Assembly: GCF_019090095.1 (NCBI RefSeq)
Contig: NZ_JAGQFP010000002.1
Location: 992,001 to 1,056,000, forward strand
Origin: Stutzerimonas stutzeri
GTDB lineage: Bacteria; Pseudomonadota; Gammaproteobacteria; Pseudomonadales; Pseudomonadaceae
Direction: 5' to 3'
Length of the DNA stretch: 64,000 nt
The notes beneath the pieces were generated by a model. The model did no database searches, was not told the origin of the DNA, and saw nothing but the letters and a program-made list of their open reading frames with translations. Made by a program: the position numbers and the translations under genes. Shown here piece by piece: positions 28,280 to 49,551 of this stretch; position 1 is the stretch's first letter; each line of letters opens with the position of its first letter.

Positions 28280-28291
28280 ATAAAGTTCCTC

Positions 28292-31246: not shown

Positions 31247-31309
31247 GGTACTGGCTGCAAGATCTGAGAGTCGGCACACTGTGATCTCAATGCAGGCGGA
31301 GTACTTTCA

Positions 31310-31990: not shown

Positions 31991-32055
31991 AGTGTAATAG
32001 CAGCTATCTTCTCTCGATGGGCCAACTACTCTACCTGGTCTGTCCCGGGCCGAGC

Positions 32056-32820
32056 CTAGCCTTCTGAGTTATACTTATTCAGTGGCGGCAGGAAGAAGAT
32101 GGGTCGCTGCGGGGGCGCTATCAAAATGTCAGTAGATTTGATGCTTGTGCCCTTGCGGCGCTTAGTTTTGCCATCTTTGCCGATCGCCAGCAGATCACCG
32201 GTCGCGACAGCCATACCGAGCGCCTGCTTTACACGAAGCTCGTCAGCCATGGTGTAATTGGTCAATCCACTCATCAGGCCCAGAAAAGGTTGCCGTTCAA
32301 CCTCGTAGACCTGCTTAGGCAAGAGCTCTGAAAGCTCGCCACGGATGCGGTCATCCGTGGCATCGTCGAAGTGGTGCTCATCCAGCAGCAAATCGTGCTG
32401 ACCTGTCACGGCGATATCCCGATTGGCGTCGTAACCAAAAAAGCTGGAAGGCGACAGCATATGGGAAAAGTTGTTGCCGTATTTCCAGTGGATCTTCTTC
32501 ATCACATCATTAGCGCGGTAGTTGTTCGCCAGATGGATAAACCAATAGGCCATCGGGTTGCTGCCGGCCGGACGAATGAAGAAGACGGTCATGTACTGGG
32601 CACCGCTTTCCTGCTTGATCCCCTCGGACAGATGGCGTTGGATCAGGTATTGCCAGTTTCGCGGCTGATGGGCCTTCAGCTGTTTAAGCATGTCCCATGG
32701 CACATGCTGATCCAAGCCGATATTTGCAATGGCTTTCCGGTTCGCTTGGCGGTCGGCTAGATACGTAACTGTTGCCGCCGATGATTTTTTGACCCGGGTG
32801 CCGACGCTATGCAGACCCAA
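32056..32820 (-). pseudogene. Probable N-terminally truncated TcmP-like protein
   Basis: A 254-codon open frame. The segment HLANNYRANDVMKKIHW and its surroundings recall the C-terminal half of the three-Cys-motif partner (TcmP) family, seen in some mobile-element defence-like loci. The methyltransferase-like N-terminal half expected of that family is absent, and the frame begins just before an unrelated umuD remnant, so I regard it as a broken gene. The family call is uncertain; it could be another unknown protein. Confidence 0.4.
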
Positions 32821-32946
32821 CCCAGCAGTCTTAAAAGTTGAAATGCAACAGCGAGTTCAGCGTTCGAAACTGGGGCAATGAAATACCGGCATGTGGGTCA
32901 AAAATGCATCGGCAGCAACAGATACAGTATTTTTGAAGCCGTCATC

Positions 32947-33265
32947 ATGAGTTTGACACCGCTCGGCCCGCTGCGCGCGTCCATCCAGCGGCTGCCCCTG
33001 TTCCTGAGTCCGATCGCCTCTGGCTTCCCCTCGCCGGCCGAGGATCACATCGAGGTCACCCTGTCTCTGGACGACCCGTGCGTCGCTACACCGCCAGTGA
33101 CTGCCGAGCGGGTGATGGGCGTGATGGATGCGATCAATGCGCGATGGGGACGGGGAACCATGCGATCTGCAGGGGTGCCGGTGAAACCGGACTGAGGGCA
33201 TGCGGCGGGAGATGATGAGCCCGAGCAATACGACGCGGATTGATCAGTTATGGACGGTAACGTAA
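32947..33265 (+). pseudogene. umuD-umuC deletion remnant
   Basis: The first ~43 codons match the start of pseudomonad UmuD (MSLTPLGPLRAS, then PLFLSPIASGFPSPAEDHI). The frame then jumps into the C-terminal end of UmuC (VMGVMDAINARWGRGTMRSA, VPVKPD). A one-base insertion after KPD brings an early stop; skipping it restores WGMRREMMSPSNTTR and a natural stop at 33265. So most of umuD and umuC has been deleted, leaving a fused, frameshifted scar of an error-prone polymerase V operon. It cannot be functional. Confidence 0.75.
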
Positions 33266-33406
33266 GCGCTTGAGGCAGCCTACCCTGGAAGAAACAGGTA
33301 TAAGCCAAGAGCTGCCCGAGTGCGAATTGATTCGCTCTAGTTGATTCAGGCGTTCATTGCCCCAGAGCAGTCAGCGAGATTGGCCTGACTGGCGACTGTT
33401 TCAGTT

Positions 33407-33679
33407 CTATGATGAAACCTGCCTGATATCCAACACGACCCAGACTTCATACCCTTTCTCTCGAGCCGCTTTCTCGGCCTCGAGTTGGGCAGCGAGTGTA
33501 CTGATGGAGCGGGAGCTGTGCTCGAAGCGGAATGGCGAGCCACCGTTCTTGCGCACGCTCAATTCAACGAGTGTGAAGGTGGAGTGCTGTTTGGGTATTG
33601 GCTGCTTCGATTTCGAAGGAGCGGGGTCTAGGCCAAGTGCGCGCCGCATCTCGGCTTCAATGAGTTTTGCGTCAGTCAA
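33407..33679 (-). CDS. Hypothetical protein
   Basis: A 90-residue frame, hydrophilic, with a predicted long helix (residues about 58-78) followed by a short strand (YEVWVVLDI). No family recognised. It lies in a mosaic of degraded accessory genes and may itself be a fragment. Confidence 0.4.
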   Translation of the reverse strand: MTDAKLIEAEMRRALGLDPAPSKSKQPIPKQHSTFTLVELSVRKNGGSPFRFEHSSRSISTLAAQLEAEKAAREKGYEVWVVLDIRQVSS

Positions 33680-33786
33680 GCGAGATCCCTAGAGCGATTG
33701 CGGGTGACGCCATTGTAGCGAGGAGTGGTGCTGACATGGCCTGAGTTCGATGCTGGCGAGCCAACAACCTCATCTCTGCGATATGG

Positions 33787-34068
33787 CTACGAATCACCAA
33801 AGTAGTCATCACAGGCGACTAGTCCGAATGGGCGTTCCTCGCAGGGCTGCTCATCGCTGAACAGATTCTGCGTGCGGCGCTCCTGCTTCAAAAACGCTAG
33901 CGCCGCGAAAAAGCAACTTTCGCATAGATTGACTCGATAGCGCTCGCCATCATGCCCTGCGCCATAGCCCCAGAGCGCCTGGAGCGTCCCGAACTGCTCG
34001 CCGTATCCCGGCACCCTCGTACTGGTAGCGCATACATCGCAAATGGTGTCTTTATGGGGCTCTGTCAT
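33787..34068 (-). CDS. Hypothetical zinc-ribbon-like protein
   Basis: A 93-residue protein with two CxxC pairs (CDVC near residue 10, CESC near residue 50), suggesting a small zinc ribbon. Small proteins of this kind are common on Pseudomonas plasmids and islands; no function is known to me. Confidence 0.5.
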   Translation of the reverse strand: MTEPHKDTICDVCATSTRVPGYGEQFGTLQALWGYGAGHDGERYRVNLCESCFFAALAFLKQERRTQNLFSDEQPCEERPFGLVACDDYFGDS

Positions 34069-34408
34069 CGGGCAGTTCTCGTGTTCGTATTAAAGAGGGC
34101 GGCGGGGGGGCACTGCACAACGGAGTGCCTTTTGCCAATTTGCAAGCGCCGCTGCGTCAGCTCAAGCATGGTCTGGTGCACCATGCCAGCGGTGGATGTG
34201 GCAGGTCTTCGACAACTGAACTGGGCTATCGAAGGGAGGATTCAAAAGCAACTGCGCTGATAAACTTATCGACAGTTGCAGATGCAGAAATCAGCAATCC
34301 GACTGGGTCAATTTCCCATCAGCGCCAACACTTCAAGCTGTCCATCGACGACCTGTGCCATGATTGGAAATGCGACGAGTGTCTGGAGATGCGGTTGGCT
34401 TTGGTTTG

Positions 34409-34642
34409 TCAAGGTTGTCCCCTGCACGTTTCTTGCGTTGCCGGCGGCGACCACTCCATTCCCTCTTCGAGGATCGGATGGCTTTCGCTCACGACGATCA
34501 ACGGTTTGTTCCGATTCTCCAGCGCGAACATGGCGATGGAGCCTCCGGCGTCCGCCACCGGCACCGCCCCCTGTGGCTCAAGCCTGCCAACCCAGACATA
34601 TTGCCGGGTCTCCAAACATGCAAGGTAATACGAAATACCCAT
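34409..34642 (-). CDS. Hypothetical small protein
   Basis: A 77-residue frame beginning MGISYYLACLETRQYVWVG with a GGAGG ribosome-binding site four bases before the ATG, which supports it as real. The last ~12 residues look unlike the rest and may follow a frameshift. Unknown function. Confidence 0.45.
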   Translation of the reverse strand: MGISYYLACLETRQYVWVGRLEPQGAVPVADAGGSIAMFALENRNKPLIVVSESHPILEEGMEWSPPATQETCRGQP

Positions 34643-34770
34643 GTTTCCTCCGAATTCGAATCAAGTCTTTTGCTGCGCCAATCCGGAACGGGAGGCGGTA
34701 CTGCCGCAATCATCAAAGGCAGCATGACACGCTCACACGACAACTATCCTGACGCGGCGGGGTTCCTCTT

Positions 34771-35229
34771 TCACTGATCAGCACTTGCTTTGTTGCTGAC
34801 CACCGTTTGCATTCGACCTATCCCCTCTTGGTTAAGCTCACCAGCCCTACAAAGGGCGTCAATCCCCTTGTAAGTCTCGAACAGGGACATGAGGTCGCCC
34901 TGCGCCATGATTTCCAACGGTTTACGGCCATTAAAGAAATCGTTGTGGTTTTCCTTGCCCGCAAAACCGTAGACGTTCTCAGGGTTATCAAAGACCAGTC
35001 GCAAGCTGGCGTGGCAGTTCAATACGATGCTGGCCCGCTCCAGTTGATCGAAGTCGAGTTCCACGCCCTTGCCCTGCTGAGCATGGGAAATGCTGCTGCG
35101 CGAGACACGAAGAATACTGCACACCTGCTCAGTAGTAGACTTCCATTTCTCTAGGATTCTCAGTGCCGTTCGGAGAATCACGCTGCCCTGATCCTTTGAG
35201 AATGCAAGGGTTTTGGATGCTGCATGCAT
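34771..35229 (-). CDS. Xre/MbcA/ParS-type antitoxin (orphan)
   Basis: A 152-residue protein. An N-terminal helix-turn-helix region (residues about 25-60, VCSILRVSRSSISHAQQG) precedes a C-terminal MbcA/ParS/Xre toxin-binding domain (NPENVYGFAGKENHNDFF, IMAQGDL). These antitoxins neutralise RES-domain toxins by binding and repress their own promoter. GGAG precedes the ATG. No RES-like toxin gene is adjacent, so it seems an orphan or acts with a distant toxin. Confidence 0.7.
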   Translation of the reverse strand: MHAASKTLAFSKDQGSVILRTALRILEKWKSTTEQVCSILRVSRSSISHAQQGKGVELDFDQLERASIVLNCHASLRLVFDNPENVYGFAGKENHNDFFNGRKPLEIMAQGDLMSLFETYKGIDALCRAGELNQEGIGRMQTVVSNKASADQ

Positions 35230-35294
35230 GGTGGTAGCTCCTGTATCTACGCAACATGGCGGTCGAGTCAGGTCATGCGCAACGGGGGGAAGTA

Positions 35295-35403
35295 TTTCGC
35301 TAAACCGTGACCGCCTGTTTCGAAGTAGGCTGGAAATTGGTCACGTTGTTAGCGAAATGAGTGGTCATGCGTTAGCGAAAAGGCCGGTCACGATGGGCCG
35401 AAA
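35295..35403. repeat. Array of GGTCAYG...CGAAA repeats, possible solo IS21-like end
   Basis: Four units of about 18 bp: one inverted at 35295-35312 (TTTCGCTAAACCGTGACC) and three direct at 35339-35357, 35363-35380 and 35386-35403, starting 24 and 23 bp apart and sharing GGTCA(C/T)G and (TTAG)CGAAA. Multiple internal end repeats of this style occur in IS21-family elements. No transposase is present. Iterons or operator sites are alternatives. Confidence 0.5.
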
Positions 35404-35410
35404 TACGCAC

Positions 35411-35857
35411 CTAGCCTCGCAGATGCAATGCCGCAGAGAAGATCACGTGGGTACTCATCCGAGTATCGAGAGGCTGACTCGCTGAGGTTGAGTACGTGCG
35501 ATCGCCTTCCACTCTGTACTGATGCCCAAGCACATTACCTTGAGCGTCTCGAATGGAGCTAATCTCCAGCAATGGCTCCATCATCCAACGACCAGCCTTG
35601 TTCATGTGCCCTGGATTCACAAGATACGCCTGCTCCAGCCAGGCGTGCTCAGTCTGCGCAGCTATGACCTGTTCCAGCAATGGAACCGACGGGACCATTA
35701 GCATGCTTCGAAAGGCCTCGTTTCCATCGTCCTCAACGATCTGCAAATAGAACCAGAGCCAGGTCACCTCTAGCTCGACATATGACCAGAACTGGACGCC
35801 ATCTGGCGCTGTTGAGAGTCCGGGGAGCAGCTCCGCATTTCGGCTGGTCTTGAACAC
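35411..35857 (-). CDS. Hypothetical protein
   Basis: About 148 residues from a GTG at 35857 (AGGTGA seven bases upstream), or 162 residues from a TTG at 35899. Trp/Tyr-rich with several predicted strands (WSYVELEVTWLWFYLQIVEDD). No family recognised. It diverges from an HTH regulator across a palindrome, so it may be controlled by it, like a partner gene in a regulator-target pair. Confidence 0.5.
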   Translation of the reverse strand: MFKTSRNAELLPGLSTAPDGVQFWSYVELEVTWLWFYLQIVEDDGNEAFRSMLMVPSVPLLEQVIAAQTEHAWLEQAYLVNPGHMNKAGRWMMEPLLEISSIRDAQGNVLGHQYRVEGDRTYSTSASQPLDTRMSTHVIFSAALHLRG

Positions 35858-35895
35858 GCGGCAATCACCTAATGAGAATTGTGTTTGATTGGTGC

Positions 35896-35922
35896 ACAAT
35901 ATATTTTGTAGTCATATATTGT
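35896..35922. promoter_or_regulatory. Palindromic operator candidate between divergent genes
   Basis: ACAATATA (35896-35903) and TATATTGT (35915-35922), perfect 8-bp arms with an 11-base spacer, AT-rich, between the hypothetical gene and the HTH regulator. It overlaps or abuts both start regions. Confidence 0.55.
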
Positions 35923-35961
35923 TCAATCGCGCTTCATCTTTCCATTTTGCGGAGCAGCAAA

Positions 35962-36252
35962 ATGGAAGTCCGGGATTCGTTCGGGAAAGCGTTGAGATTC
36001 GTGCGGCACCGTAGGGGGCTGGCGCAGGAAGATTTCTCGCTCGTTAGCAGCCGTACCTTCGTCAGCATGCTGGAGCGCGGGGCAACGAGCCCGACTCTCG
36101 AAAAGCTCGATAGCCTCTGCACGGTGCTCGACACTCATCCGGTCACCCTCTTGGCCCTGACCTACTTGCTTGGATCCGAAGCTCCTGAAAGTTTTGAGCA
36201 GCTCCTGGAGAAGGTTGGTGAGGAGTTGAGAGCTCTAGTCGAACCTGACTGA
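35962..36252 (+). CDS. XRE-family HTH transcriptional regulator
   Basis: A 96-residue protein with an HTH_3 domain at residues about 6-62 (FGKALRFVRHRRGLAQEDFS, SRTFVSMLERG) and a short helical tail. The ATG at 35962 follows GGAG at good spacing; the longer upstream frame is AT-rich promoter sequence. It probably represses the divergent hypothetical gene and itself through the palindrome between them. Confidence 0.8.
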   Translation: MEVRDSFGKALRFVRHRRGLAQEDFSLVSSRTFVSMLERGATSPTLEKLDSLCTVLDTHPVTLLALTYLLGSEAPESFEQLLEKVGEELRALVEPD

Positions 36253-36418
36253 TTACTCAGCGAGGCTGTGTGAGGGACCGGTTCCGTGGCCGCACAGTGA
36301 GTGTTGACCTTGCTGTCCCTCTGTGCCCTGTGGCTGGCCTGGAGGTCCCGTTTTTGGCAGGGCTTATAGTTTTTGTGGGCGTCAGAAAATATGTGGATTC
36401 TGACTTTTTGGGGCTCAT

Positions 36419-37003
36419 ATGTCCGTCGCACAAGCTATTTTAAATCGAGTCAAGCACATGCCAAAGGGGAGGCCCTTTGCCGGCGCGGTGTTCGCGCAGA
36501 TCGGTTCCCGTGCGTCGATTGATAAAGCGCTTTCTAGGCTGGTGCAATCAGGCACGCTGGAGCGAGTAGCTCGCGGTGTCTACATGCGCCCCAAAATGAG
36601 CAAGTACACCGGCAGGGTGGTGCGCCCGAGTCCGCTGGCTGTCATGGAGGTCATCACGAAGGCGAGCGGCGAGACGATCCAGATACACGGCGCGGAGGCT
36701 GTTCGGAGGTTGGGCCTCAGCACACAGATGCAGGTGTTGCCGACCTTTTACACCAGCGGATCTACTCGCGAGATCAAGGTTGGCAATGCGGTGGTTCGCC
36801 TCCGCCACGTATCCAAGGATCGCTTGCAGCACGCCGGCACGACGGTAGGTGTGGCGCTTACTGCTCTCTACTACATCGGGAAAGAAGGGCTGTCCGCTAA
36901 TGTGGTTTCCAAGATTGTTAGAGCGCTGAGCGGCGAAGAGCTGATGAAGCTCCGGGCCTGCAAGATGCCGGCATGGATGCGGTCGACATTGAGCCTTGTG
37001 TGA
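36419..37003 (+). CDS. AbiEi-like antitoxin / DUF6088 family protein (orphan)
   Basis: A 194-residue protein: an N-terminal winged helix (residues about 1-60, AILNRVKHMPKGRPF, LSRLVQSGTLERVARGVY) and a C-terminal AbiEi-like domain (IQIHGAEAVRRLGLSTQ, PTFYTSGSTR). The family comprises type IV antitoxins that repress an AbiEii nucleotidyltransferase toxin. No such toxin follows; the next gene is hrpB. It appears to be an orphan left at the edge of a rearrangement. Confidence 0.7.
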   Translation: MSVAQAILNRVKHMPKGRPFAGAVFAQIGSRASIDKALSRLVQSGTLERVARGVYMRPKMSKYTGRVVRPSPLAVMEVITKASGETIQIHGAEAVRRLGLSTQMQVLPTFYTSGSTREIKVGNAVVRLRHVSKDRLQHAGTTVGVALTALYYIGKEGLSANVVSKIVRALSGEELMKLRACKMPAWMRSTLSLV

Positions 37004-37161: not shown

Positions 37162-39684
37162 ATGAGCTTTCTCCCTATCGACGTTGCTCTGCCTGCCCTT
37201 CGCTCAGCATTGGCAGAGCGAAATGAAGCTGTCCTTGAAGCTCCTCCAGGAGCGGGTAAGACAACCCGAGTTCCCCTCGCTCTATTGAATGAGGCATGGC
37301 TTGGAACCCAAACCATCTTGATGCTCGAGCCGAGGCGTCTTGCTGCTCGAGCTGCGGCTGAGCGTCTAGCTAGCGAATTGGGTGAGAGAGTAGGTGAAAC
37401 CATCGGGTACCGGATTCGCTTGGAAAGCAAAGTCGGTCCGAAAACCCGAGTTGAAGTCGTCACCGAGGGCATCCTGTCCCGTCGTTTACAAGAGGATCCT
37501 GCCCTCGACGGTGTTGGGGTTGTCATCTTCGATGAATACCATCTTCGTACGCTCGACGCAGATTTAGCCTTAGCACTTTGCCTTAACGGCCGTGAGCTTC
37601 TGAGGGACGAAAGCCAACCTCTTAAGATCCTTCTCATGTCTGCAACGCTTGAGGGGGATCGCCTTTCTAAGCTCCTGAACGACGCTCCAATAGTGACGAG
37701 CGACGGTCGTATGTTCCCGGTCACCACGTATTGGGGGAGACCTTATCAACTCGGTGAGTTCGTCGAGCCACGCGTGATTCAGATCTGCCTGCAGGCCCTA
37801 TCTGAACAAAGCGGGAGCATCCTTGTATTCCTTCCCGGTCAGGCTGAAATACGCCGGGTTAACGAGCAGTTGAAAGATCAACTGAAGGGCCAAGAGAACA
37901 TTATGCTTTGTCCGCTCCATGGCGAACTTGACCTATCGTCCCAGCGAGCTGCTATCGAACCCGCGCCACAAGGCAAACGCAAAGTGGTGCTTGCCACCAA
38001 CATAGCCGAAACAAGCTTAACCATCGACGGCGTTCGCGTCGTAGTGGACGCTGGACTGGCCCGCGTGCCGCGCTTTGACCCTGTCAGTGGTATGACTCGC
38101 CTGGATACGCAACGTGTTTCTCGAGCGGCAGCTACGCAACGTGCTGGCCGCGCAGGACGCCTCGAACCAGGTGTTTGCTATCGACTCTGGTCGGAATCGC
38201 AACATGACCAGCTTGCTGCATACGACGCTGCCGAAATTTTGCAGGCAGACCTATCTGGACTCGCGCTGCAGCTAGCACGATGGGGCGTGCAGCCTGACGA
38301 TTTGGCTTGGTTAGATTCGCCTCCTGTAGCAGCTTATGCGCAAGCTCGTGACCTGCTCATCCGGCTAGGAGCATTAGATGAGCGTGGTGTTATTACTGCC
38401 CATGGCCAAGCTATGGCTGAGTTACCTGCACATCCTCGAATCGCGCATCTGTTGCTCCGTGGCCAAGCATTCGGACTTGGTAACCTCGCCTGTGACATCG
38501 CGGCGCTGCTTGGAGAAAAGGATATCCTCCGCGGTACCGGCGCCGACCTTCATGATCGTATTAGTGTATTGGGTAATGAAGCGTCCTCACGCGCTAGTCG
38601 AGGGGCTGTTCAACGAACCCGTCAGCTAGCGAGACAGTTCAGGGGATATCTACGCGGTCCGGTATCTGAGCCTGTGGCAGACCCTGATCATCCACGGTGG
38701 CAAGGGGGGCTCTTGGCCTTCGCTTATCCCGACCGAGTTGCTCGTCAGCGACGCGATGGTGGAGCTGAGTACCGATTGGCAAATGGTCGTGCCGCTCAGT
38801 TTGGCGAGCCTGACGCACTGATGAAAGAACCTTGGCTAGTCATTGCAGATCTTGGGAGCAGACAAGGTCAGAGAGAGGAGCGCATCTACATTGCCGCAGC
38901 ACTTGATCCCCAGCTATTCGACACTCTGCTTGCCGAGCAGGTAAGCCAGCGTGATGAACTCGAGTGGGATGAACGCGAAGGTGTATTGAAAGCCGAGCGT
39001 CAGCAGCGTGTGGGTGAGCTGGTACTGAGTCGAGCGGCCATTCCTGGGCTTGATGAAGAGGCTCGTTCTAAGGCCTTGGTCGGCCTCGTACGTCGCAAGG
39101 GCATGGAGCTGCTACCGTGGACACCGGATCTTCGTCAGTGGCAGGCACGAGTGTCTCTTCTTCGTGGTCTGGATCTCGAGCAAAAGGGTGAAAGTGAGTG
39201 GCCTGATCTGTCAGATACCGCACTCCTGAGCTCACTTGAAGAGTGGCTGGGACCGTATCTGGATAAAGTCAGCCGACTCAGTCATTTCGCCGACTTGGAT
39301 CTCCGAAGCATCCTTTTTGGTTTACTGCCTTGGCCGTTACCTGCACGCCTCGATGAACTTGCCCCCAAAGCGCTGCAGGTGCCTTCTGGCTCGCGCATTG
39401 CGATTGATTACTCAGAACACCCACCCGTGCTTGCTGTGAGGCTACAGGAGCTGTTTGGCCTGGCTGACACTCCACGTGTAGCAGGAGGCCGTCAGGGGGT
39501 GCTACTGCATCTACTGTCTCCAGCCCGCAGACCCGTACAGGTTACTCAAGATCTCGCCAGCTTTTGGGCCAACACTTACATTGAAGTAAAGAAAGATCTA
39601 AAGGGTCGATACCCCAAACACTGGTGGCCTGATAACCCTATGGAAGCAGAACCAACCGCTAGGAGTAAGCCTAGAAAGCAATGA
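37162..39684 (+). CDS. hrpB: ATP-dependent helicase HrpB, island-borne complete copy
   Basis: An 840-residue DExH helicase, full length for HrpB. Walker A is EAPPGAGKTT (K33), Walker B D124-E125-Y126-H127, then MSATLEGD, and a C-terminal HrpB domain ending RYPKHWWPDNP. Its coding sequence is visibly less GC-rich than the native hrpB fragment at 47407, so the whole gene, not just its 3' part, comes from another lineage. I start at ATG 37162; the GTG at 37144 adds six residues. It lies next to recombinase genes that interrupt the native copy and probably supplies the lost function. The exact role of HrpB in the cell is not well known. Confidence 0.9.
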   Translation: MSFLPIDVALPALRSALAERNEAVLEAPPGAGKTTRVPLALLNEAWLGTQTILMLEPRRLAARAAAERLASELGERVGETIGYRIRLESKVGPKTRVEVVTEGILSRRLQEDPALDGVGVVIFDEYHLRTLDADLALALCLNGRELLRDESQPLKILLMSATLEGDRLSKLLNDAPIVTSDGRMFPVTTYWGRPYQLGEFVEPRVIQICLQALSEQSGSILVFLPGQAEIRRVNEQLKDQLKGQENIMLCPLHGELDLSSQRAAIEPAPQGKRKVVLATNIAETSLTIDGVRVVVDAGLARVPRFDPVSGMTRLDTQRVSRAAATQRAGRAGRLEPGVCYRLWSESQHDQLAAYDAAEILQADLSGLALQLARWGVQPDDLAWLDSPPVAAYAQARDLLIRLGALDERGVITAHGQAMAELPAHPRIAHLLLRGQAFGLGNLACDIAALLGEKDILRGTGADLHDRISVLGNEASSRASRGAVQRTRQLARQFRGYLRGPVSEPVADPDHPRWQGGLLAFAYPDRVARQRRDGGAEYRLANGRAAQFGEPDALMKEPWLVIADLGSRQGQREERIYIAAALDPQLFDTLLAEQVSQRDELEWDEREGVLKAERQQRVGELVLSRAAIPGLDEEARSKALVGLVRRKGMELLPWTPDLRQWQARVSLLRGLDLEQKGESEWPDLSDTALLSSLEEWLGPYLDKVSRLSHFADLDLRSILFGLLPWPLPARLDELAPKALQVPSGSRIAIDYSEHPPVLAVRLQELFGLADTPRVAGGRQGVLLHLLSPARRPVQVTQDLASFWANTYIEVKKDLKGRYPKHWWPDNPMEAEPTARSKPRKQ

Positions 39685-39741: not shown

Positions 39742-39960
39742 TTACGTGGCGCGTGCCTTGGCAATTTCAAAGTCTTCATTACGAAACTTCTTGAGCTTTG
39801 CAAGCTTTGTTGCGTACTCGGCAACAGGCATTCCTGCCTTCAAGTCGTTCAGAAGTTTCTCTTGGCTTTGGTCAAAGACTTCAATCGCCTTGATCATGTA
39901 AACCGAGGAAACCGTAGTGTGATAGTTCGATACCTTCTCGAAGGCTAGGTGAATGTAGCG
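39742..39960 (-). pseudogene. C-terminal stub of a tyrosine recombinase (ginC-like)
   Basis: About 72 codons matching the C-terminal end of the complete recombinase at 40879-42312: YIHLAFEKVSNYHTTVSSVY aligns with YYINLAFRDLAGYTETVSSV, and GMPVAEYATKLAKLKKFRNEDFEIA with its last 30 residues. The frame continues upstream only through antisense hrpB, so the rest of the gene was lost at about 39960. It ends 57 bases from the island hrpB stop, convergent with it. Confidence 0.75.
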
Positions 39961-39961
39961 C

Positions 39962-40671
39962 TCTACAGAGTCAGGACAACCCCCTGGCCCTGTTGGCCGG
40001 TGACGACAAGGCCGCGCGCGGCGCTCGTGGCGGCGTGCAGCGCGCCCGCCAGCTGGCGCGGCAGTTCCGCTCCTAGCTGCGCGGCCCGGCCAGCGAGCCG
40101 GTGGCCGATCCGGATTACCCGCGCTGGCTCGGCTGCCTGCTGGCCTTCGCCTACCCGGACCGCATCGCCCAGCAACGCCGCGCGGGCGGTGCCGATTACC
40201 GCCTGGCCAACGGCAGCGCGGCGACCTTTGGCGAGCCGGATGCGTTGATGAAACAGCCCTGGCTGGTGATCGCCGACCTCGGCAGTCGCCAGGGCCAGCG
40301 CGAGGAGCGCATCTACCTCGCCGCCGACCTCGACCCGGCGCTGTTCGAGGGGCCGCTGGCCGAACTGGCGCCGCGTACGCTGGAAGTGCCGTCCGGTTCC
40401 CGTATCCGCCTGGACTACAGCGACGAGATGCCGGTACTCGCCGTGCGCCTGCAGGAGCTGTTCGGCCTGGCCGATACCCCGCGCATCGCCAACGGTCGCC
40501 AGGCGTCAAGCTGCACCTGCTGTGCAGGTCACCCAGGACCTGGCGAGCTTCTGGCGCAATACCTACGCGGAAGTGAAGAAAGATTTACGAGGTAGGTACC
40601 CCAAGCATTACTGGCCTGAGGATCCACTTGTGGCCGAGGCTACTGCAAGAGCTAAGCCGAGAAAGCCATAG
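39962..40671 (+). pseudogene. Degenerate hrpB fragment of a third lineage
   Basis: High-GC sequence encoding pieces of the HrpB C-terminal half (VQRARQLARQFR, YPRWLGCLLAFAYPDRIAQQ, SRQGQREERIYLAADLD). Lesions: no 5' part; a TAG near 40072; an internal deletion of over 100 codons joining GPLAELAP to RTLEVPSG; and a ~20-bp deletion near 40515 that shifts the frame. The last ~95 bases switch to low GC, as if taken from yet another copy. Its residues differ from both other hrpB copies. Confidence 0.8.
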
Positions 40672-40878: not shown

Positions 40879-42312
40879 TCATGTGCGAGTGAGTGAAGAC
40901 TCCCGCTGGCGAGCAATCTCAAAGTCCTTATTCGCCATCTTCTGCAGCACTTTGAGTCGCTGAATGTACTCGGTGACCGGCATACCTTCTTCAAGGAGGG
41001 CGAGCAATTCGTTCTCCTCTGAGAAGTACTTGTCCATCGCCATGACCAGGTGAACTGAACTTACTGTTTCCGTGTATCCAGCCAAATCGCGGAAGGCCAA
41101 GTTGATGTAGTACTCGGCCGATTGTGATGTGAGATGACCTGTCCAACTGATTACCTCAGCCAGGAATGTCTGGCTATCAAGTAGCGCACGCCGGAAGTCG
41201 TCTTCATTGGTGAGTTGGTGGCGTTTGATGAAGCGAATGAAGAGATTGGTGATGAAGGCATGACGGAACATGTGCGCGCAGACTTGGGACTCGATGCCGG
41301 CTACTTTGCGCAGATGATTGATCTCGTTTGATATTGCGCCGCTTGTGAGCGGGCGACCCGTTGTCGCAGAGACGAAGAAATACCCATGATCTTTTACGCC
41401 TTTGTACACAGTGCGCATGATTTTGCGTCGCTCCACTTCTATGTACTGTTTGAGTTTTTTTAGCGCAGTAGAAAAGACGGGAACGTAGCGCTCGGCTCCC
41501 TCGGCCTGTTTGAGCGTGTCCAGGCGTAGTACGGGATGTTCCATTTCCAATGCTCTCAGTACATCATCCACCTTAAGGTTTGCAACTTCGGTGCGCCTTC
41601 CACCTGTATCGCTGAAAAGTTCAATCATGCAGGCACGTCTTACCTTCACAAACGCAGGGCTCTTATCCTTCCGGATGGCGGCTTTCAGTTGCTGAATCTG
41701 CTCTTTCGTGATCGGGTTTCTGCGGTGTTCTCTGTGCGACTCTCCGAACGAGTGATGCGTCAAGTAAGTCCGATAGATATTTCTCCCATTTCGGGACGCG
41801 GCGACATACTTTTCCTCCCTGGCCCGTATTGACCCTTCAGGAGAAACAAAGTTAGGAATGCCATATAATCGGCCAACGAAGCCTAGAAAATCTAGCCAAA
41901 CTTTTCCCGTGGCAACTACTGAGGTCTCCGATTTCTTTGTTACCGCCGGATTGAAACTCGAGGTCTCCTTTCGAATCTCATCAATGTAATCAGTAAACTT
42001 TCCATCTTGCAGGGTGATGGGGTCGAGACTATCTCGATAGCACTTTCGTAGCAGTTGACTCAATTTTGAGGCGTACTCTCCCATTGATCCGCCTTTCTGT
42101 CCCTTTCGCGATAGCCCTTGCTTTCCACGTCCCTTGCGACTCAACAGGGATTGCATATACAGGTTGCCAATTAAACAGGGCGAACCGTTTGGCCAGATCA
42201 TAAACGGCATGTTAGTGGCATCACGGGTACTCAAGCGGTCGACCGAAAAGTGGCTGAATGTCTTGAATTCGCCCAAGAGGCTGTAAAGCTTACGGGTTAA
42301 TCGACTATTCAT
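40879..42312 (-). CDS. ginC: Tyrosine recombinase, third recombinase of a gin-type operon
   Basis: A 477-residue integrase with the complete catalytic set: first Arg in SDTGGRRTEVANL, HxxRH in CAHMFRHAF, GH in SWTGHLTSQSAEYYIN with the nucleophile Tyr near its end. It starts three bases after the preceding coiled-coil gene. It acts with the two other recombinases to cut and join DNA at the attachment site. The gene symbol follows the GInt naming by analogy and is tentative. Confidence 0.85.
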   Translation of the reverse strand: MNSRLTRKLYSLLGEFKTFSHFSVDRLSTRDATNMPFMIWPNGSPCLIGNLYMQSLLSRKGRGKQGLSRKGQKGGSMGEYASKLSQLLRKCYRDSLDPITLQDGKFTDYIDEIRKETSSFNPAVTKKSETSVVATGKVWLDFLGFVGRLYGIPNFVSPEGSIRAREEKYVAASRNGRNIYRTYLTHHSFGESHREHRRNPITKEQIQQLKAAIRKDKSPAFVKVRRACMIELFSDTGGRRTEVANLKVDDVLRALEMEHPVLRLDTLKQAEGAERYVPVFSTALKKLKQYIEVERRKIMRTVYKGVKDHGYFFVSATTGRPLTSGAISNEINHLRKVAGIESQVCAHMFRHAFITNLFIRFIKRHQLTNEDDFRRALLDSQTFLAEVISWTGHLTSQSAEYYINLAFRDLAGYTETVSSVHLVMAMDKYFSEENELLALLEEGMPVTEYIQRLKVLQKMANKDFEIARQRESSLTRT

Positions 42313-42315
42313 GCG

Positions 42316-42939
42316 CTAGCCTTTGCGGTAGTCCGAGATATTGGCAACGTCCGCTATCGGAGCGTGAGCTTCGGAATAATTTTCTACTTGATTGAACGGT
42401 GGCATGCCCATGCTCAATATGGCCCGTAAAGTGTGGAGGGCATCGTGGGTCCGCTTTGCTCGGATCTTGTCGTCCGCTGCGTCGCGTATGTTGGTGAGCT
42501 GAGTCATTGACTCGGATAGTGCGCGAAGCAATATCACATTCGTCTGCCGCTGCATCTCCAGTTCCTGTTCCAGCTGCTCGACCTTTCTTGTTAACCCTGA
42601 CTTGCTTCGTTTATTGGCGTGTTGCTGCCGTTTCTCCGCAAATTCAAGCGCCTCGAGAGCTTTGAGGCGTAGATCATTTAGTGCTTTGAAGCCACCAACT
42701 AGGTTTTCATTAGCATGTGTCTTCAGGCTGTTCAAGCTCATAGGGTAAGTTATTAGTGGCTCGTCTTTCTCGCTCGCTATAGATCGCTCGAGTTTTGCGA
42801 GACTTCCTTGGCTTTTTAGGGCGAGGTGGAGATCGGCATCCTTACTGAATTGCACTGGCCGTTGAATGATCTGCACAAGCAGAACATGAAGCGCCTTGAC
42901 GCCGGCAGCCACTAGGCTTGCTCGCGACGCCCTGCTCAT
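42316..42939 (-). CDS. Coiled-coil accessory protein of the recombinase operon
   Basis: A 207-residue, highly charged protein with a strong coiled coil at about 110-165 (LTRKVEQLEQELEMQRQ). It overlaps the upstream recombinase by four bases (ATGA) and precedes the last recombinase by three. GInt operons and Tn554-like elements each encode one small non-recombinase protein (GinD, TnpC) needed for movement; this gene holds that role by position. I see no sequence proof of homology. Confidence 0.65.
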   Translation of the reverse strand: MSRASRASLVAAGVKALHVLLVQIIQRPVQFSKDADLHLALKSQGSLAKLERSIASEKDEPLITYPMSLNSLKTHANENLVGGFKALNDLRLKALEALEFAEKRQQHANKRSKSGLTRKVEQLEQELEMQRQTNVILLRALSESMTQLTNIRDAADDKIRAKRTHDALHTLRAILSMGMPPFNQVENYSEAHAPIADVANISDYRKG

Positions 42940-45041
42940 GCTGTTTCCTCAGTTAAAATCAGGCGGGCCACTACCTTGAACTTGTGGCCCTGGTGATCCG
43001 TGAAGAATTCCGGCTCGATTTCCACCCAGCCCTCAACTAGCAAGTCTTGAATCTGGTCTTCTAGATCATGGGTATCTATCAGATTGAAGTCTTCTGTCCC
43101 GTGCCGTTTCTTGAGTAATTCGGCGAGGGCGAGGTAATTCTCAACATTGCCCATATGCAGTTGTTCGGCTACATAGTGTGCCTTGGCACTGGCTAACACG
43201 GATCCGTCGGTTGATTCGGTAATGTAATGGTAGACATGCTTTGGATCCGCATGTCCCAGCATCCATTGCAGCGTGTCGAGTTTGGCGAAACTGCCGCAGT
43301 AAAAGAACAACATTGCAAAAAAACGACGCATTTGGTGCTGGCGGAAATAGTATCGCTCACCAGCTGCGTTTAGAGGTGTTTCGAAATAGTCACAGAACAT
43401 GTCGAGGTTGCGGTTGTACACGGTAACGGACGATTCCGTGAGATTCGGTGCGCCTGTTACAGTAGGAACGGCGAAAAGGGTTTTAAGCTTACGGATGTAA
43501 CCTATCCGTTGCAGAACCTTCTGCATCCTAATGAGAGTCTTTACCATGTCTACGGCTATGGGTTCGATGGGGCGCGCTTGCCTGCGACGATGACCGAAGA
43601 GGTGGCGAGTGCTCTTTGCGTTTTTAAACATGAGCCACGTCTCAGTTTCGTCAAGGCAATCGGCTGCTTTTAATTCATACAACTCGCTAGCGCGTCGGGC
43701 CATAAGCACGCCAATAGTCAACTGTATGCACCCGATGTAAACCATTATGAGTTCATATAGACCAGAATTGCGTCTTAGGTTTTCGAAATACTCGTTTTTT
43801 TTACCCTTCACGTTGGAGCGAGTTTTGGACTTGGCTGAACCACGCACACGAGTCGAAAGACATAGTCTATTTACTCCCAGAGATGCCAGTTTTTGACCAA
43901 CTAGATATTGTACCTCTTCATGCGTAAGAGAGCTTGGAGATATGTTGCGCTTGCGGCACTCGAGTGCAACTCGACAGAAAGCTTTAGTGATTTCTTGTCC
44001 GTGATCGAGGTGGAACTCTATCGCTTGACGTACAGCCTTGAATACGATGTCGGACGGAACAGTGCGAAACCTACCCAGGGTCGACAAATCAGGCATATAG
44101 CGTTCAGCCTCAATTAGGGCCTCTAGGGGAGGGCTTGGAAGCGGGATTTCATGTAACAACCCAAGGCTGTATAAAGTTGAACGATAGAAATAGTAGGTAT
44201 TGTCTATCATTCTCTCATGCTGCCCACTTTTTACGGGCGCACTTCGGTATTCCTTTTTAAAAGTACTGGTGTCACTGTTGAAGCAGAGGATTGGGTGAAC
44301 GGGCTTGGCGAGGCTCTTGCCTCGTAGGGTATCATGGTAAATATCCTGGGCGAGCAAAAAGGTATTCGGCTGTTTGCCATAGGGAACTTGGTTGTGATAG
44401 AAATTTCTTAAGTATAGAGCCGCCCGTACCTGAGGAATTAGGTCATAAGATATTCCTAGTATGTCATCGTCCAATTGCTCATTAGTGATCAATCCAATTT
44501 CTGGAAGGCTCTTCAGTACGATTGAGATCTCGTTGGAATCGGTGCGTTTAACTAAATCAAGGCAGTATTCGCGTGCTCGATTAGTCCAATTGTATATTGA
44601 CTCTGTAGTATGTGGGGTTGATGCTATCGTCTCTAGAATTTCAATTAAGTTACTACTCGTAAGCCCGCCAAGTCCATGAGAGGATAGCTTGTAGCGTTTG
44701 CTATTTATGAGCAGTAAGTCAATGATATGACAAGCAGCGCGAAAGCGCTTGTGCTGCTGTCGCTGACCTTTCGCTTCTGCAAGAAAACTGGAAGAAATGC
44801 GTGTGCAAGACGTCAAGTAATACTTGAAGCTGTCGAGCAGTTGTTTGTGTCTGGATTCCGTAAGAGTGCTTCCGTCATCCAATACTACCCTCCAGTCAAG
44901 CTCTTTATATGTTTTGAATTCAAAGCTAATCCTCCACACTGGATCATCGAAGTCGCTGAGAAGCCAACAGGCCGATCGATATTCTTCTTTAGCCTTGATT
45001 AGAAAAGGCGAAAGAAAATCGAGTTCAGGGGGTAGATGCAT
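42936..45041 (-). CDS. ginB: Tyrosine recombinase, second recombinase of a gin-type operon
   Basis: A 701-residue protein. The C-terminal ~250 residues form the catalytic domain: Arg in MARRASELYELKA, HxxR in RQHQMRRFFAMLFF, GHADPKHVYHYI with the nucleophile Tyr. The long N-terminal half is unlike ordinary phage integrases but fits the large recombinases of tripartite elements. It overlaps its upstream neighbour by 17 bases and the next gene by four. Confidence 0.85.
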   Translation of the reverse strand: MHLPPELDFLSPFLIKAKEEYRSACWLLSDFDDPVWRISFEFKTYKELDWRVVLDDGSTLTESRHKQLLDSFKYYLTSCTRISSSFLAEAKGQRQQHKRFRAACHIIDLLLINSKRYKLSSHGLGGLTSSNLIEILETIASTPHTTESIYNWTNRAREYCLDLVKRTDSNEISIVLKSLPEIGLITNEQLDDDILGISYDLIPQVRAALYLRNFYHNQVPYGKQPNTFLLAQDIYHDTLRGKSLAKPVHPILCFNSDTSTFKKEYRSAPVKSGQHERMIDNTYYFYRSTLYSLGLLHEIPLPSPPLEALIEAERYMPDLSTLGRFRTVPSDIVFKAVRQAIEFHLDHGQEITKAFCRVALECRKRNISPSSLTHEEVQYLVGQKLASLGVNRLCLSTRVRGSAKSKTRSNVKGKKNEYFENLRRNSGLYELIMVYIGCIQLTIGVLMARRASELYELKAADCLDETETWLMFKNAKSTRHLFGHRRRQARPIEPIAVDMVKTLIRMQKVLQRIGYIRKLKTLFAVPTVTGAPNLTESSVTVYNRNLDMFCDYFETPLNAAGERYYFRQHQMRRFFAMLFFYCGSFAKLDTLQWMLGHADPKHVYHYITESTDGSVLASAKAHYVAEQLHMGNVENYLALAELLKKRHGTEDFNLIDTHDLEDQIQDLLVEGWVEIEPEFFTDHQGHKFKVVARLILTEETA

Positions 45042-47322
45042 AGATCAGATGCTCCATGTGTGAAGCGCTGACGTGCTTTCGCGCGATGTGTAGGTGATCT
45101 TGAAGGTCACTGTTGTAGCCATCTTCAATCTCTCGTACTACCAAGTCGGTGAAATTCGACCAGTAAATAGCTTTAGAGCACAGTTTGGACGGGGTGCTAG
45201 CGCTGCAAACGGCTTCTTTTAATGAAAGGAGGGCAGTAAGCACTCCGCTGTCGATCGAGATAAGTACACGATCAGCCTGGTCAATATGCTGGATGTCCCG
45301 CTGTTTTGAATCCGCCATTTTCATGTGCTCGGGGTTCCGGATATGATCTGGAATTTCTCGTAGAGCATGGTGTTTTAGGAACTCATGAAGTTCCTCCATG
45401 TTTTGGAATCTTGCGACTTCTAGTAAGCGAGGGCTGTCCTTCATGGCTTCGCAAATAATGCCGCGCTGGAAAATTCGAATCCATCGGGTCTGGAAAAATG
45501 CAAGGATAGGTTCCGGTAGGTAACTACTCAGCAAAGAAGAGTTATATCCAGTATGCCCGATAGCCTTAGCCATAGTTTCTACGCTGTTAGTCTTTAGGTA
45601 AACTTCAACTCCACTGGATGCTCGCAGCGATGTCACCGAAACACGTGAAATAAACTCTCGGATGGTGTTTTCGTCTCGGCCAGAAATAGTTGAAAATTCG
45701 TCAATTATCTGCTGGTGACGATCTATCATGCATGGCTTGATCTTGAATATCTTCGGCTTTTTTGGATAACAGATGGCTCGCTGGCAGTGAATAAATAAAT
45801 ACCGCCATGCATTATCGTCTGCATTGCGAAGTTCTTCCCGAAGGGGTTCAGTTAGTGAAATTACTCGGCGAACCCATACGGCCTGCCGAGGAGTAAGGTC
45901 GATTTTTTGCTCACTCAATTTGCCTCCTTTGCGATCTTTGTATCCAATAAGTTGATAGCCGCTGTCTGTCTTCAGGAATCCAGAAAGATTTCCCCGTTTG
46001 TCGTAGAGCTCGAGGTTATCGAAGAAGCTTTCTGTCAAGCAGGGATGATGGTAAGTGAGTAGCAACTGCAGGGCGAAGAAGTCGCTGGGTTTGGGGAGGG
46101 CAAATAATTTGGCTGCATCATCTTTCGTTGTTTGCCAAAGAATCTTGTTTGCATGCTCTCTAAGATAAGCTAGCCCAAATTTTTTGAATGTTGCACATAA
46201 GTTGTTCTCTCCGACTTCATTGATGCTTGCAAGTCGTCGGCTTATTTTTGTGATTGGTGTCCCTGTGAGCGAAAGTTGATCTCGATTGATTTGTTTCTTG
46301 CGGATGCTAAAGAGTCGTTTTTCAGCCCATTTCACTACTATCTGGTTATCTTCTAGGATTCTTTTAAATATTATTTCTATTGCTTCGGAGTCGGTTAGCT
46401 GCAGCGGTACGGAAGTTATGAGCTTGTCTTTAACAATGGTGCCATCAGCTGTCGTTCTGAGATTGGTATGGGAGCCAGGCGTAGAGGCGGAAGTCGGGCG
46501 CGGTAACTCACCAGCGAATGGCCGGGTCCAAATTCCCGATTGGATGAACGCCTCATCTATAGTATGGATGAACTTCGCATAGGAACGCGTCCGATTTGCG
46601 ATGTCAGTACCTACTTCCAGTGCTTGCTTGAAGTTGAAGAGTAAGTAATCGATGAAGAGATTCTTGATCTGCATAGGGTGCTGGAAACTGGTACTGGGCC
46701 AGCGCTCAGCATTTTGTGAGAGAAAGAGCAAAAACAAATTGAAGTCAGAGTGCGCAGGTGCAAGATGTTTTTGCGCATTCTGGCGATAGTTCTTATAAAT
46801 CTCTTCGGCAAACTCCTCGCCGTGGGAGTTCCAGATTAGGTTGATCGGAATGAAGCTGATTGCTTCTTTGCGGCCTTGAACAGGCCAGCCATTCCAGTAG
46901 CGAACTGACTTTGCGTCGAGGTGCTGCTTTTCCTGCTCCCAAACGTGCTGGTTGTAACGGGGATAAACCTGCATTCGAGATAAGGAGGGCAAAAGTGGGA
47001 TCTCCTTACGCATTTCATCCAACAGCATGACGAATCCCCTGGCGTAGCGCTGTCTGCTCGTACCGTTTAGGACGAGCAGAGATTGGTCGGCTAACGATCC
47101 GAGAAAGCCTTTCATGACATTAAGAAATGATGGGGAGGAGAGAGACAGATAAGTGATCACGGTGCCGGTGACTTGGCAGTAGGCTTCGAAGACCTTCACG
47201 AGGTGAGTAGCTTTTTCCGCAGCGTTGATCGCGGCGCAACGCTGCATGAGGTCCACGACATCTGGAGGTATGACGCTAAAGCGATAGTTCACCAACGACT
47301 GCATATGTTTGATGACTGTCAA
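45025..47322 (-). CDS. ginA: Large tyrosine recombinase, first gene of a gin-type operon
   Basis: About 765 residues. The catalytic part is near residues 600-660: VTSLRASSGVEVYL (Arg), IGHTGYNSSLLSSYLP (His and likely Tyr); the usual HxxR His seems replaced by Ser or Thr. I place the start at TTG 47322 with an AAGGA site six bases upstream; ATG 47304 is an alternative. The open frame continues to 49152 only because antisense hrpB lacks stops. It heads the operon and lies next to the junction with native hrpB. Confidence 0.75.
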   Translation of the reverse strand: MTVIKHMQSLVNYRFSVIPPDVVDLMQRCAAINAAEKATHLVKVFEAYCQVTGTVITYLSLSSPSFLNVMKGFLGSLADQSLLVLNGTSRQRYARGFVMLLDEMRKEIPLLPSLSRMQVYPRYNQHVWEQEKQHLDAKSVRYWNGWPVQGRKEAISFIPINLIWNSHGEEFAEEIYKNYRQNAQKHLAPAHSDFNLFLLFLSQNAERWPSTSFQHPMQIKNLFIDYLLFNFKQALEVGTDIANRTRSYAKFIHTIDEAFIQSGIWTRPFAGELPRPTSASTPGSHTNLRTTADGTIVKDKLITSVPLQLTDSEAIEIIFKRILEDNQIVVKWAEKRLFSIRKKQINRDQLSLTGTPITKISRRLASINEVGENNLCATFKKFGLAYLREHANKILWQTTKDDAAKLFALPKPSDFFALQLLLTYHHPCLTESFFDNLELYDKRGNLSGFLKTDSGYQLIGYKDRKGGKLSEQKIDLTPRQAVWVRRVISLTEPLREELRNADDNAWRYLFIHCQRAICYPKKPKIFKIKPCMIDRHQQIIDEFSTISGRDENTIREFISRVSVTSLRASSGVEVYLKTNSVETMAKAIGHTGYNSSLLSSYLPEPILAFFQTRWIRIFQRGIICEAMKDSPRLLEVARFQNMEELHEFLKHHALREIPDHIRNPEHMKMADSKQRDIQHIDQADRVLISIDSGVLTALLSLKEAVCSASTPSKLCSKAIYWSNFTDLVVREIEDGYNSDLQDHLHIARKHVSASHMEHLIYASTP

Positions 47323-47410
47323 AGATTTATCCTTGAGATTATTTCCATGAAATGCCCGGAATAGAAGGATACTGGAAGAGTTTGACAACATCTGGCAAGT
47401 GGCAAAGTGC
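47323..47410. other. Island/hrpB junction (putative attachment site)
   Basis: Low-GC island DNA changes to high-GC hrpB coding sequence between about 47330 and 47412. The hrpB reading frame begins abruptly at GAGCGCAGCCTGGAC (ERSLD of the DEFHERSLD motif). This is the right border of the element and should hold one attachment site. The matching border was not found in the window. Confidence 0.65.
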
Positions 47411-49551
47411 TTGAGCGCAGCCTGGACGCCGATCTGGCCCTGGCGTTGACCCTCAATGCGCGCGTGCTGCTGCGCGACGAACCGCTCAAGCTGCTGCTGA
47501 TGTCCGCCACCCTCGAGGGCGCGCGGCTGTCGAGTCTGCTGGAGGACGCGCCGGTGGTGCGCAGCGAGGGGCGCATGTACCCCGTTGTGCAGCGCTGGGG
47601 GCGACCATTCCAGGCTGGCGAACGCATCGAGCCACGCGTGGTGCAGACGATCCTGCAGGCGCTGGATGAGCAAGCCGGCAGCGTGCTGGTGTTTCTGCCG
47701 GGGCAGGCCGAGATTCGTCGCGTGAACGACGCCCTGGCCGAGCAGCTGGCGGGTCGAGACGAGGTGATGCTGTGCCCGTTGCACGGCGAGCTCGAGCTGG
47801 CGGCCCAGCGCGCGGCCATCGAGCCGGCGCCGGCCGGCAAACGCAAGGTGGTGCTGGCGACCAATATCGCCGAGACCAGCCTGACCATCGAGGGCGTACG
47901 CGTGGTGGTCGATGCCGGCCTGGCGCGGGTGCCGCGGTTCGACCCGGGCAGCGGCATGACGCGGCTGGAAACCCGGCGCATCTCGCGTGCCTCGGCGACC
48001 CAGCGTGCCGGGCGGGCAGGGCGCCTGGAGCCTGGTGCCTGCTACCGGCTCTGGTCCGAAGACCAACATGCGCAGCTGGCGGCCTATGGCGATGCCGAAA
48101 TCCTGCAGGCGGATCTGGCCGGCGTAGCGTTGCAGTTGGCGCGTTGGGGGGCCGAGCCAGACGAGCTGGCGTGGCTCGATGCGCCGCCTGCCGCCGCTTA
48201 CGCCCAAGCGCAGGATCTGCTCGAGCGGCTCGGGGCGCTCAGCCGCACGGCGCGTGGATCCTGGCAACTGACTGCCCACGGGCAGGCCATGGCCGAACTG
48301 CCAGCACACCCGCGTATCGCCCATCTCCTGTTGCGCGGCCAGGCACTGGGGCTGGCATCGCTGGCGGCCGATATCGCCGCCTTGCTGGTCGAGCGCGATA
48401 TCCAACGTACCGGCGGCGCGGACATCTCGACCCGTCTCGGGCTGCTCGATGGCAGTGCGGGCCGGCACGCAGGCGCGCAGCGGGTGCGGCAGCTCGCCCG
48501 GCAATTTCGTGGCTTGCTGCGTGGCCCGACGGTTCCGGCCCCGGCGGATGCGTCGGATCACCGTTGGCACGGCGCGCTGCTGGCGTTCGCCTATCCCGAC
48601 CGCATCGCCCGCCAGCGTCGGGAAGGGGGTGGTGAATACCGCCTGGCCAACGGCCGCGCGGCGGTATTCGGTGAGCCGGATGCGCTGATGAAGGAACCCT
48701 GGCTGGTGATCGCCGAATTGGGCAGTCGCCAGGGCCAGCGTGAGGAGCGCATCTACCGCGCCGCCGCGCTGGATCCAGCACTGTTCGATGACGTGCTGGC
48801 CGAGCAGGTCGGCGTGCGCGACGAGCTGGAGTGGGACGAGCGTGAAGGTGTGCTGCGGGCCGAGCGGCAGCGGCGTGTTGGCGAGCTGGTGCTCAGCCGT
48901 GAACCGCTGCCGGGCCTGGACGAGGAGGCGCGCGGTCGCGCCCTGCTCGGGCTGGTGCGGCGCAAGGGCCTGGAGCTGCTGCCGTGGACGCCGGAGCTGC
49001 GCCAGTGGCAGGCGCGCATAGCGCTGCTCAGGCAGATCGACCTGGCCTCCGCCGGGGCGAGCGACTGGCCGGACGTCAGCGATGAGGCGCTTGTGGCGCG
49101 ACTCGAAGAGTGGCTGCTGCCGTATCTGGGCAAGGTCTCGCGGCTGGCGCACTTCGCCGCGCTGGACCTGCGCGGCATGCTCGCCACGCTACTGCCCTGG
49201 CCGCTGCCCCAGCGTCTCGACGAGCTCGCGCCGCTGGCCATCGAGGTGCCTTCGGGGTCGCGGATCCGGCTCGATTACAGCGAGTCGCCGCCGGTGCTGG
49301 CGGTACGCTTGCAGGAATTGTTCGGCCTGGCCGATACGCCGCGCATCGCCGGTGGCCGTCAGGTGGTCAAGCTGCACCTGCTGTCGCCGGCGCGTAGGCC
49401 GGTGCAGGTCACGCAGGATCTGGCCAGCTTCTGGGCCAACACCTACCTGGACGTGAAGAAGGACTTGAAGGGTCGCTATCCGAAACACTACTGGCCAGAC
49501 GATCCGCTGATCGCCGAACCGACCGCGCGGGCCAAGCCGCGCGGGACCTGA
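47407..49551 (+). pseudogene. hrpB: Native hrpB, N-terminally truncated by island insertion
   Basis: 714 codons of high-GC hrpB lacking the first ~130 residues, so Walker A and the DExH box are missing; it starts at ERSLDADLAL. What remains (MSATLEGA, QRAGRAG, and the C-terminal domain to RYPKHYWPDDP) is intact to the stop. It continues naturally into core chromosome on the right, so it is the resident gene. It cannot work as a helicase; the island copy at 37162 presumably replaces it. Confidence 0.88.

Follow-up and report, generated by a model that had tools for sequence, protein, structure and literature searches.

How can a mobile island afford to land inside a conserved motif of a gene that looks valuable to its host? 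The question is raised by a 64,000-nucleotide stretch of the Stutzerimonas stutzeri genome (assembly GCF_019090095.1, contig NZ_JAGQFP010000002.1, positions 992,001 to 1,056,000), referred to as the window (G000:C2:992001-1056000; genome size 4.9 Mb). A four-gene operon coding for three recombinases and one small protein occupies one end of a 69.6-kb island with copper cargo, and this island splits the helicase gene hrpB. The same island carries an intact, foreign hrpB that is altered at the very point at which the native gene is cut. The original prediction had correctly recognized the operon, the copper cargo and the insertion in hrpB; the island's own recoded hrpB, its central feature, was absent from it. 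The island is probably a site-specific insert-and-rescue element with a target-proof spare hrpB. Such a landing would be affordable in that the replacement gene is presumably safe from the element's own enzymes.

The split hrpB and its recoded spare

A search of the genome with an intact hrpB found an intact copy, the 3' part of the native gene beside the first operon gene (g1) and decayed pieces between them. The same search placed the native 5' part 22 kb to the left of the window (C2:969440-969817, matched over residues 3-128), where it adjoins genes that neighbour hrpB in other genomes too. Two further, weaker matches are other helicases. The two native parts flank the island, and the cut lies in motif II between the H and E codons (DEFH^ERS). 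The left junction reads GACGAATTTCACG followed by TTTTGCCATTTGC, and the right junction reads GGCAAGTGGCAAAG, TGCTTG and then AGCGCAGC. Based on these junctions the element extends from C2:969816 to window position 47407 and is placed after the DEFH codons. The g1-side end is an inverted-repeat arm, GGCAAGTGGCAAAG (47394..47407, plus strand); the partner arm, TTTTGCCATTTGC, begins beyond the window at G000:C2:969816. The repeats, written as TTTGCCACTTGC (reverse complement of the g1-side arm) and TTTGCCATTTGC, agree at 11/12 positions by eye and have a 6-bp spacer. Next to the arm stands the 6-bp footprint TGCTTG (47408..47413, plus strand), which equals the centre of an empty site on the megaplasmid pKF715A. 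The displaced 3' part of native hrpB (47414..49551, plus strand) resumes inside the codon of the Glu that follows DEFH. Element ends differ among lineages (e.g., AATTACTAAATGC in G110). Two other layouts of this region were rejected. The left hrpB is not the native gene with the right one as a duplicate, because the native 5' part 22 kb left of the window fits the right-hand copy; the island does not end on the g4 side near 40879, because its other end was found at C2:969816.

The spare (copy A, 37162..39684, plus strand) codes for 840 aa and matches TIGR01970 with 1189.7 bits. It shows 77% aa sequence identity to the native part and 97% to the spare of G110. Its landing site (37522..37572, plus strand) reads VIFDEYH-LRTLDADLAL in place of DEFH-ERS, and the Glu-to-Leu codon is residue 128 (37543-37545). 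Native sites are DEFHERS or DEYHERS; spares have DEYHLRT, DEYHLRS, DEYHLRN or DEFHLRN.

We searched 398 Pseudomonadaceae genomes with a g1 alignment (cut-off E <= 1e-30) and found g1 in 30 of them; g2 was matched in 19/198 family genomes. hrpB is split at the identical place, with g1 adjoining the 3' part, in 20 of the 30 g1-positive genomes (G000, G077, G103, G110, G122, G143, G152, G172, G176, G180, G202, G211, G217, G233, G275, G298, G323, G326, G339 and G349). The G298 element occupies the same places as P. putida HAI-2 (G200). A full-length spare hrpB is present in all 20 (frameshifted close to the start in G077); it lies beside g4 in one element group and at the g1-distal end in another. 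A whole hrpB was found in nine of the remaining ten g1-positive genomes, so that their element or remnant lies outside hrpB. No operon beside an intact hrpB and without island borders, the case that would have spoken against an island, was found among the loci examined.

At the insertion point, 20/20 spares of the hrpB-resident elements have Leu, and 57 of the 58 inspected uninterrupted hrpB genes have Glu, the exception being G124 (Fisher p 1e-17, a test that ignores shared ancestry). The Leu codon itself varies among spares (CTT, CTG, TTG). Among 47 native genes 403 residues are invariant; nine of these are changed in copy A, five in the G103-type spare and 11, 13 and 22 in three other tested spares, and the Glu of the attachment (att) site is among the changed residues in all five. 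The Leu type occurs in 51 of the best 120 HrpB homologues of copy A, a query that itself favours the Leu type.

Six-base footprints and movement

Hexamers at the element borders were read on the published model for the elements named SE, in which 6 bp separate the inverted repeats (PMC10214605). By eye, the g1-distal hexamer matches the native gene (TYCAYG in hrpB; ACCACG in G077, where the native site is DEYH). The g1-proximal hexamer is foreign: TGCTTG, TGCGTG (TGCGAG in G233), TCTTCG, TCGTCG, ATGCTG, TCGACG, TGCCCC, TTTGCC, TCTCCG or CAGTGG. A 6-bp target duplication was rejected, since the hexamers on the two sides are unlike each other in the hrpB insertions read.

The origin of one such hexamer can be followed. 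Near-identical operons are found in Stutzerimonas stutzeri 28a22 and Pseudomonas sp. ZH-FAD, and the ZH-FAD copy of the window element interrupts a gene that is present uninterrupted on megaplasmid pKF715A. Because of this match, two draft contigs of ZH-FAD are read as likely plasmid DNA. The empty site in pKF715A is CACTATC-TGCTTG-GCCTCGG; the occupied site in ZH-FAD reads CACTATC-TGCTTG, the element, and then TCCACG-GCCTCGG. In G000 and G176 the footprint in hrpB is TGCTTG, which is the plasmid-site centre; at the plasmid site the element's footprint is TCCACG, a common hrpB centre. It was concluded from this reciprocal exchange that the element moves in both directions between hrpB and the megaplasmid site. 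The g1-side six bases are not a fixed part of the element, as we had considered, because these bases are TGCTTG when the element sits in hrpB and TCCACG when it sits on the plasmid contig. Another copy is found in the megaplasmid terD gene of pPA1609-475 (NZ_CP090650.1; L140/L139), in which about 33 kb separates hrpB from the operon; it bears TCCACG, and two empty plasmids examined have TCTACG. Plasmid searches with two 84-bp end regions gave no match. A circular intermediate would account for the exchange, by analogy with the SE work. Through these reciprocal footprints the travel history of single elements (chromosome to megaplasmid and back) can be read from sequence, and the movement rule of SEs extends to a separate operon family.

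The operon and its likeness to known systems

The operon consists of four closely packed minus-strand genes (40879-47322; 765, 701, 207 and 477 aa), and its reality and exact coordinates were borne out. g1 (45025..47322) codes for a 765-aa protein with a predicted tyrosine-recombinase fold and a putative GinC- or Tfp-like role; it has no meaningful Pfam match. In 14-row alignments K462, R567, H590 and Y601 of g1 are invariant, and the first catalytic Arg appears, by eye, to be missing in this one of the three recombinases. g2 (42936..45041) is a large tyrosine recombinase of 701 aa (PF00589, 2.9e-4) with invariant R449/R450, K476, H569, R572 and Y606. g4 (40879..42312) codes for an ordinary tyrosine recombinase of 477 aa (PF00589, 1.9e-18), in which the catalytic residues are kept as in g2 (14-row alignments, assigned by eye). 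The 207-aa small helical protein of g3 (42316..42939) is likely an auxiliary factor with a role like that of GinD, Srap or TnpC.

The description of this operon as gin-type holds in part. The composition resembles the gin set (g2 and g4 catalytic, g1 seemingly without the first Arg); the GInt family name and the gene order did not carry over. The third position of the small gene had been noted as a departure from the published layout. The order g1-g2-small g3-g4 is identical in all 16 relatives whose gene order was determined, and it is thus a trait of the family. In the accessible parts of PMC5385486, GInts have the order ginABCD with the small gene last and with one recombinase, the third one (GinC), lacking the first Arg; here the recombinase that seems, by eye, to lack it is g1, the first gene, the small gene is third and the ordinary recombinase is last. 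Published GInts have their small gene next to the cargo, imperfect direct repeats of 10-17 nt at the borders and an AT-rich far end, and they excise as a circle, for which all four genes are required; the borders here were read as inverted repeats. Like the published GInts, the island has at one end an operon for three proteins of tyrosine-recombinase type and a small protein, and it shares with them high site specificity, resistance cargo and a 6-nt exchange region (PMC5385486). GInt sites described there are intergenic or at the ends or starts of genes, in contrast to the mid-gene site with a whole recoded replacement found here. GInts at a duplicated ribonucleotide reductase gene are also mentioned (PMC5385486).

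SEs, as far as the accessible text of PMC10214605 describes them, have four core genes of similar size (467, 773, 731 and 165 aa in pSEA1, assigned by position), terminal inverted repeats, a 6-bp spacer, a 6-bp fingerprint/footprint rule and copies in plasmids and chromosomes. As in SEs, the attB site is split at both borders here and the inverted repeats are imperfect with a 6-bp spacer. The SE order is intA-tfp-intB-srap (PMC10214605), and by role the order here is tfp-intB-small-intA. In a 12-sequence search only the g4 family profile gave a clear match, to SE IntA (2.7e-6), and that of g2 reached 0.03 with IntB; the g1 and g3 profiles gave no significant match to Tfp or the small protein of pSEA1, the one SE used. 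The SE footprint lies on the intA-distal side according to that source, and here on the operon-proximal side; the polarity is mirrored, and the reciprocal exchange bears out the rule itself. The accessible text does not report that SEs carry their own target gene (PMC10214605), and the island here does. RIT elements and Tn554 also have several tyrosine recombinases that act together, and Tn554 has a 6-bp footprint (partly after PMC10214605). We do not claim membership in GInt or SE for the operon; its gene order differs from both, and GInt was compared by its published description.

To our knowledge this four-gene order or a target rescue copy does not occur in RIT elements or Tn554. Some integrases rebuild the end of their target, such as phages in icd or SXT in prfC, and the element in this way repairs the gene it interrupts. 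In engineered recoded-rescue gene drives the rescue copy is recoded and escapes cutting by the nuclease. What differs here from both is a whole foreign gene, recoded at a recombinase site, in a natural element. The finding has a bearing on resistance islands, because hrpB is named in passing as a genomic-island site of P. aeruginosa in the part of PMC8373256 that is accessible. In the accessible parts of two of the four papers cited there for this site (PMC4821235 and PMC7809047) there was no helicase or hrpB match. A replacement hrpB was described in no title or abstract among the matches listed, in a search that lay mostly outside the subscription literature.

Several relatives of the operon are found at other sites. 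Three distant operons of the same gene order interrupt comM (L036, L051, L052), and the break follows roughly residue 304 or residue 345 in the family profile. A whole comM was found in none of these three genomes, in contrast to the whole hrpB that accompanies hrpB-resident elements. One subtype sits, by eye, at the start of a small YggL-like gene (L045, L046 and L047 in G146, G070 and G142), and the element end seems to supply a new gene start. In G245 (C1:3566771-3567172; L248, L261) hrpB is cut after DEFH and the left end is identical to that of the window element; the genome also has two gin operons of another subtype (about 30-39% identity), one of them on a 909,734-bp replicon. At G150:C18:584500-604400 (L137) an orphan 5' part of hrpB is joined to an element left end and is accompanied by genes that by eye are restriction-like and by an hrpB that is whole and of native type; the locus has no operon and looks like a decayed element.

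Descent of the spares and competing readings

Trees of hrpB were quick and unrooted; rows were thinned and displaced fragments left out in the 56-row and 65-row trees, and the 103-row tree includes fragments. A single clade for the 19 Leu rows was rejected on the 56-row tree, which was built without the three motif residues (approximately unbiased (AU) test, p = 0.000195), and four Glu/Leu changes were counted on this tree and five on the 65-row tree. The G103-type spare was placed beside native genes of another genus, with support of 97 (103- and 56-row trees) or 88 (65-row tree). Between G122 and G152 the operon proteins are 90-96% identical and the spares just 78%, and both spares have Leu. 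The ratio of nonsynonymous to synonymous substitution rates (dN/dS) is 0.06-0.12 between diverged spares, which therefore are under purifying selection; two almost identical spare pairs gave 0.18 and 0.35, on very few changes. The hrpB of G124 (C1:1789858-1792368; L110) is the sole one of its genome and groups with carried copies. It is possibly a domesticated spare, and it may be a relic of replacement or a source.

The window island itself is a composite. Beside the spare is a remnant of a second g4 (its last 74 codons, 39742..39966, minus strand) with 93% identity to g4 of G110 and 45% to g4 of the window. It is followed by a decayed third hrpB copy (39999..40665, plus strand) with fragments, stops and an internal deletion; over its first 370 nt identity is 90.5% with the native gene of G101 and 88.6% with the spare of G103 type, and the landing site is absent from this debris. 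The simplest reading is that two successive elements took part: a G110-like one would have given the intact spare and the other the recombinases, and a deletion would have removed the rest. Since the same arrangement is found in G176 and ZH-FAD, the composite seems to move as one unit.

We propose the following course of events. The four proteins would act as one tyrosine-recombinase machine that moves the island site-specifically. It has landed in hrpB exactly after the DExH-box codons, as the junctions show, and has split the native gene; the carried full hrpB, kept intact under selection, would replace the lost function. At the landing site the spare differs from native genes, chiefly by Leu in place of Glu directly after DExH; the repeated occurrence of this change suggests that the recoded spare would then be no target for the recombinases of the element or its relatives. 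The circle would take six bases from the g1-distal flank and leave them at the g1-proximal flank of the next site, and the footprints show that the element passes between chromosomal hrpB and megaplasmid genes. The only whole hrpB of the host would then be on the island, so that loss of the island should be costly. We are evenly divided on a wider view, a natural form of insert-and-rescue in which the host is made dependent, the spare is protected from the element's own and rival enzymes, the element alternates between megaplasmid and chromosome, and rivals replace each other's spare. The last of these steps was included because the window composite suggests that rivals succeed one another by spare replacement.

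A number of observations weigh against this proposal. The unrooted quick trees cannot separate gain from loss, and the HAI-2 row is a long branch. Nine G103-type genomes share one near-identical spare and count as one lineage. The recoded patch could have been spread by short gene-conversion tracts. When divergence is measured window by window and scaled by that among natives, the att site comes out high but is not the maximum along hrpB (16, 26, 27, 27 and 131 by rank, of about 815, in five spares); the natives have a median rank of 640, yet one native stands at 3, and we take this comparison as moderate support for recoding at the site. The pPA1609-475 copy holds an hrpB with unrecoded ERS, so recoding is not universal. 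The Leu form exists outside elements, in the hrpB of G124 (DEFHLRN) at the native locus of a genome with no g1 or g2 match. In G245 the native 5' part is followed by a left end of G000 type, and neither a whole hrpB nor a 3' part was found in the genome; rescue is therefore not absolutely needed.

A rival reading is rescue without immunity, in which hrpB is kept since insertion destroys a valuable gene and Leu reflects protein function or chance. HrpB does look valuable (the spares are kept and dN/dS is low), and both the unrecoded copy of pPA1609 and the Leu form at the native locus of G124 agree with this explanation. Against it, all 20 spares, from several lineages and with differing Leu codons, are altered exactly at the insertion point, where 57 of the 58 uninterrupted genes keep Glu, and we regard it as unlikely. 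Elements at the hrpB locus also have ready access to hrpB, and the gene might be a passenger picked up there, with all recoded copies derived from one carried ancestor, as the nearly identical nine G103-type spares would fit. Presence in 20/20 elements at two element positions and strong purifying selection argue against a passenger, as do the rejection of a single Leu clade and the different spares found under near-identical recombinases; this origin is very unlikely. Least credible of all is a plain GInt of the published type that is new only in its target and copper cargo. The gene composition, site-specific insertion and resistance-gene cargo are indeed similar, and the duplicated ribonucleotide reductase gene offers a parallel (PMC5385486), but the order differs in the 16 relatives whose gene order was determined (small gene third, ordinary recombinase last), and a duplicated, site-recoded target is not described in the accessible part of that paper.

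If the insert-and-rescue proposal with a target-proof spare is true, it describes how an island can be made hard to lose without a toxin, and it would explain why foreign alleles have repeatedly replaced hrpB in Pseudomonadaceae. It would also be nature's equivalent of the engineered gene drives with recoded rescue, with tyrosine recombinases as its parts, and it offers a case in which target immunity by recoding can be tested directly.

The cargo within the window (1..37003) includes genes for Cus-type efflux, a P-type ATPase, CopB, a multicopper oxidase, two-component genes and antitoxin-like genes. At 32056-32820 an open reading frame (ORF) matches only the C-terminal part of the profile of the three-Cys-motif partner protein (TcmP), and it is possibly a truncated island gene. 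To the right of the displaced hrpB part, near a DEAD-box helicase gene (52584-54231), there are short repeats that by eye are translated as repeated LEAGSWK in overlapping ORFs. Two close direct repeats of about 140 bp, 74% alike, are located at 60407-60652.

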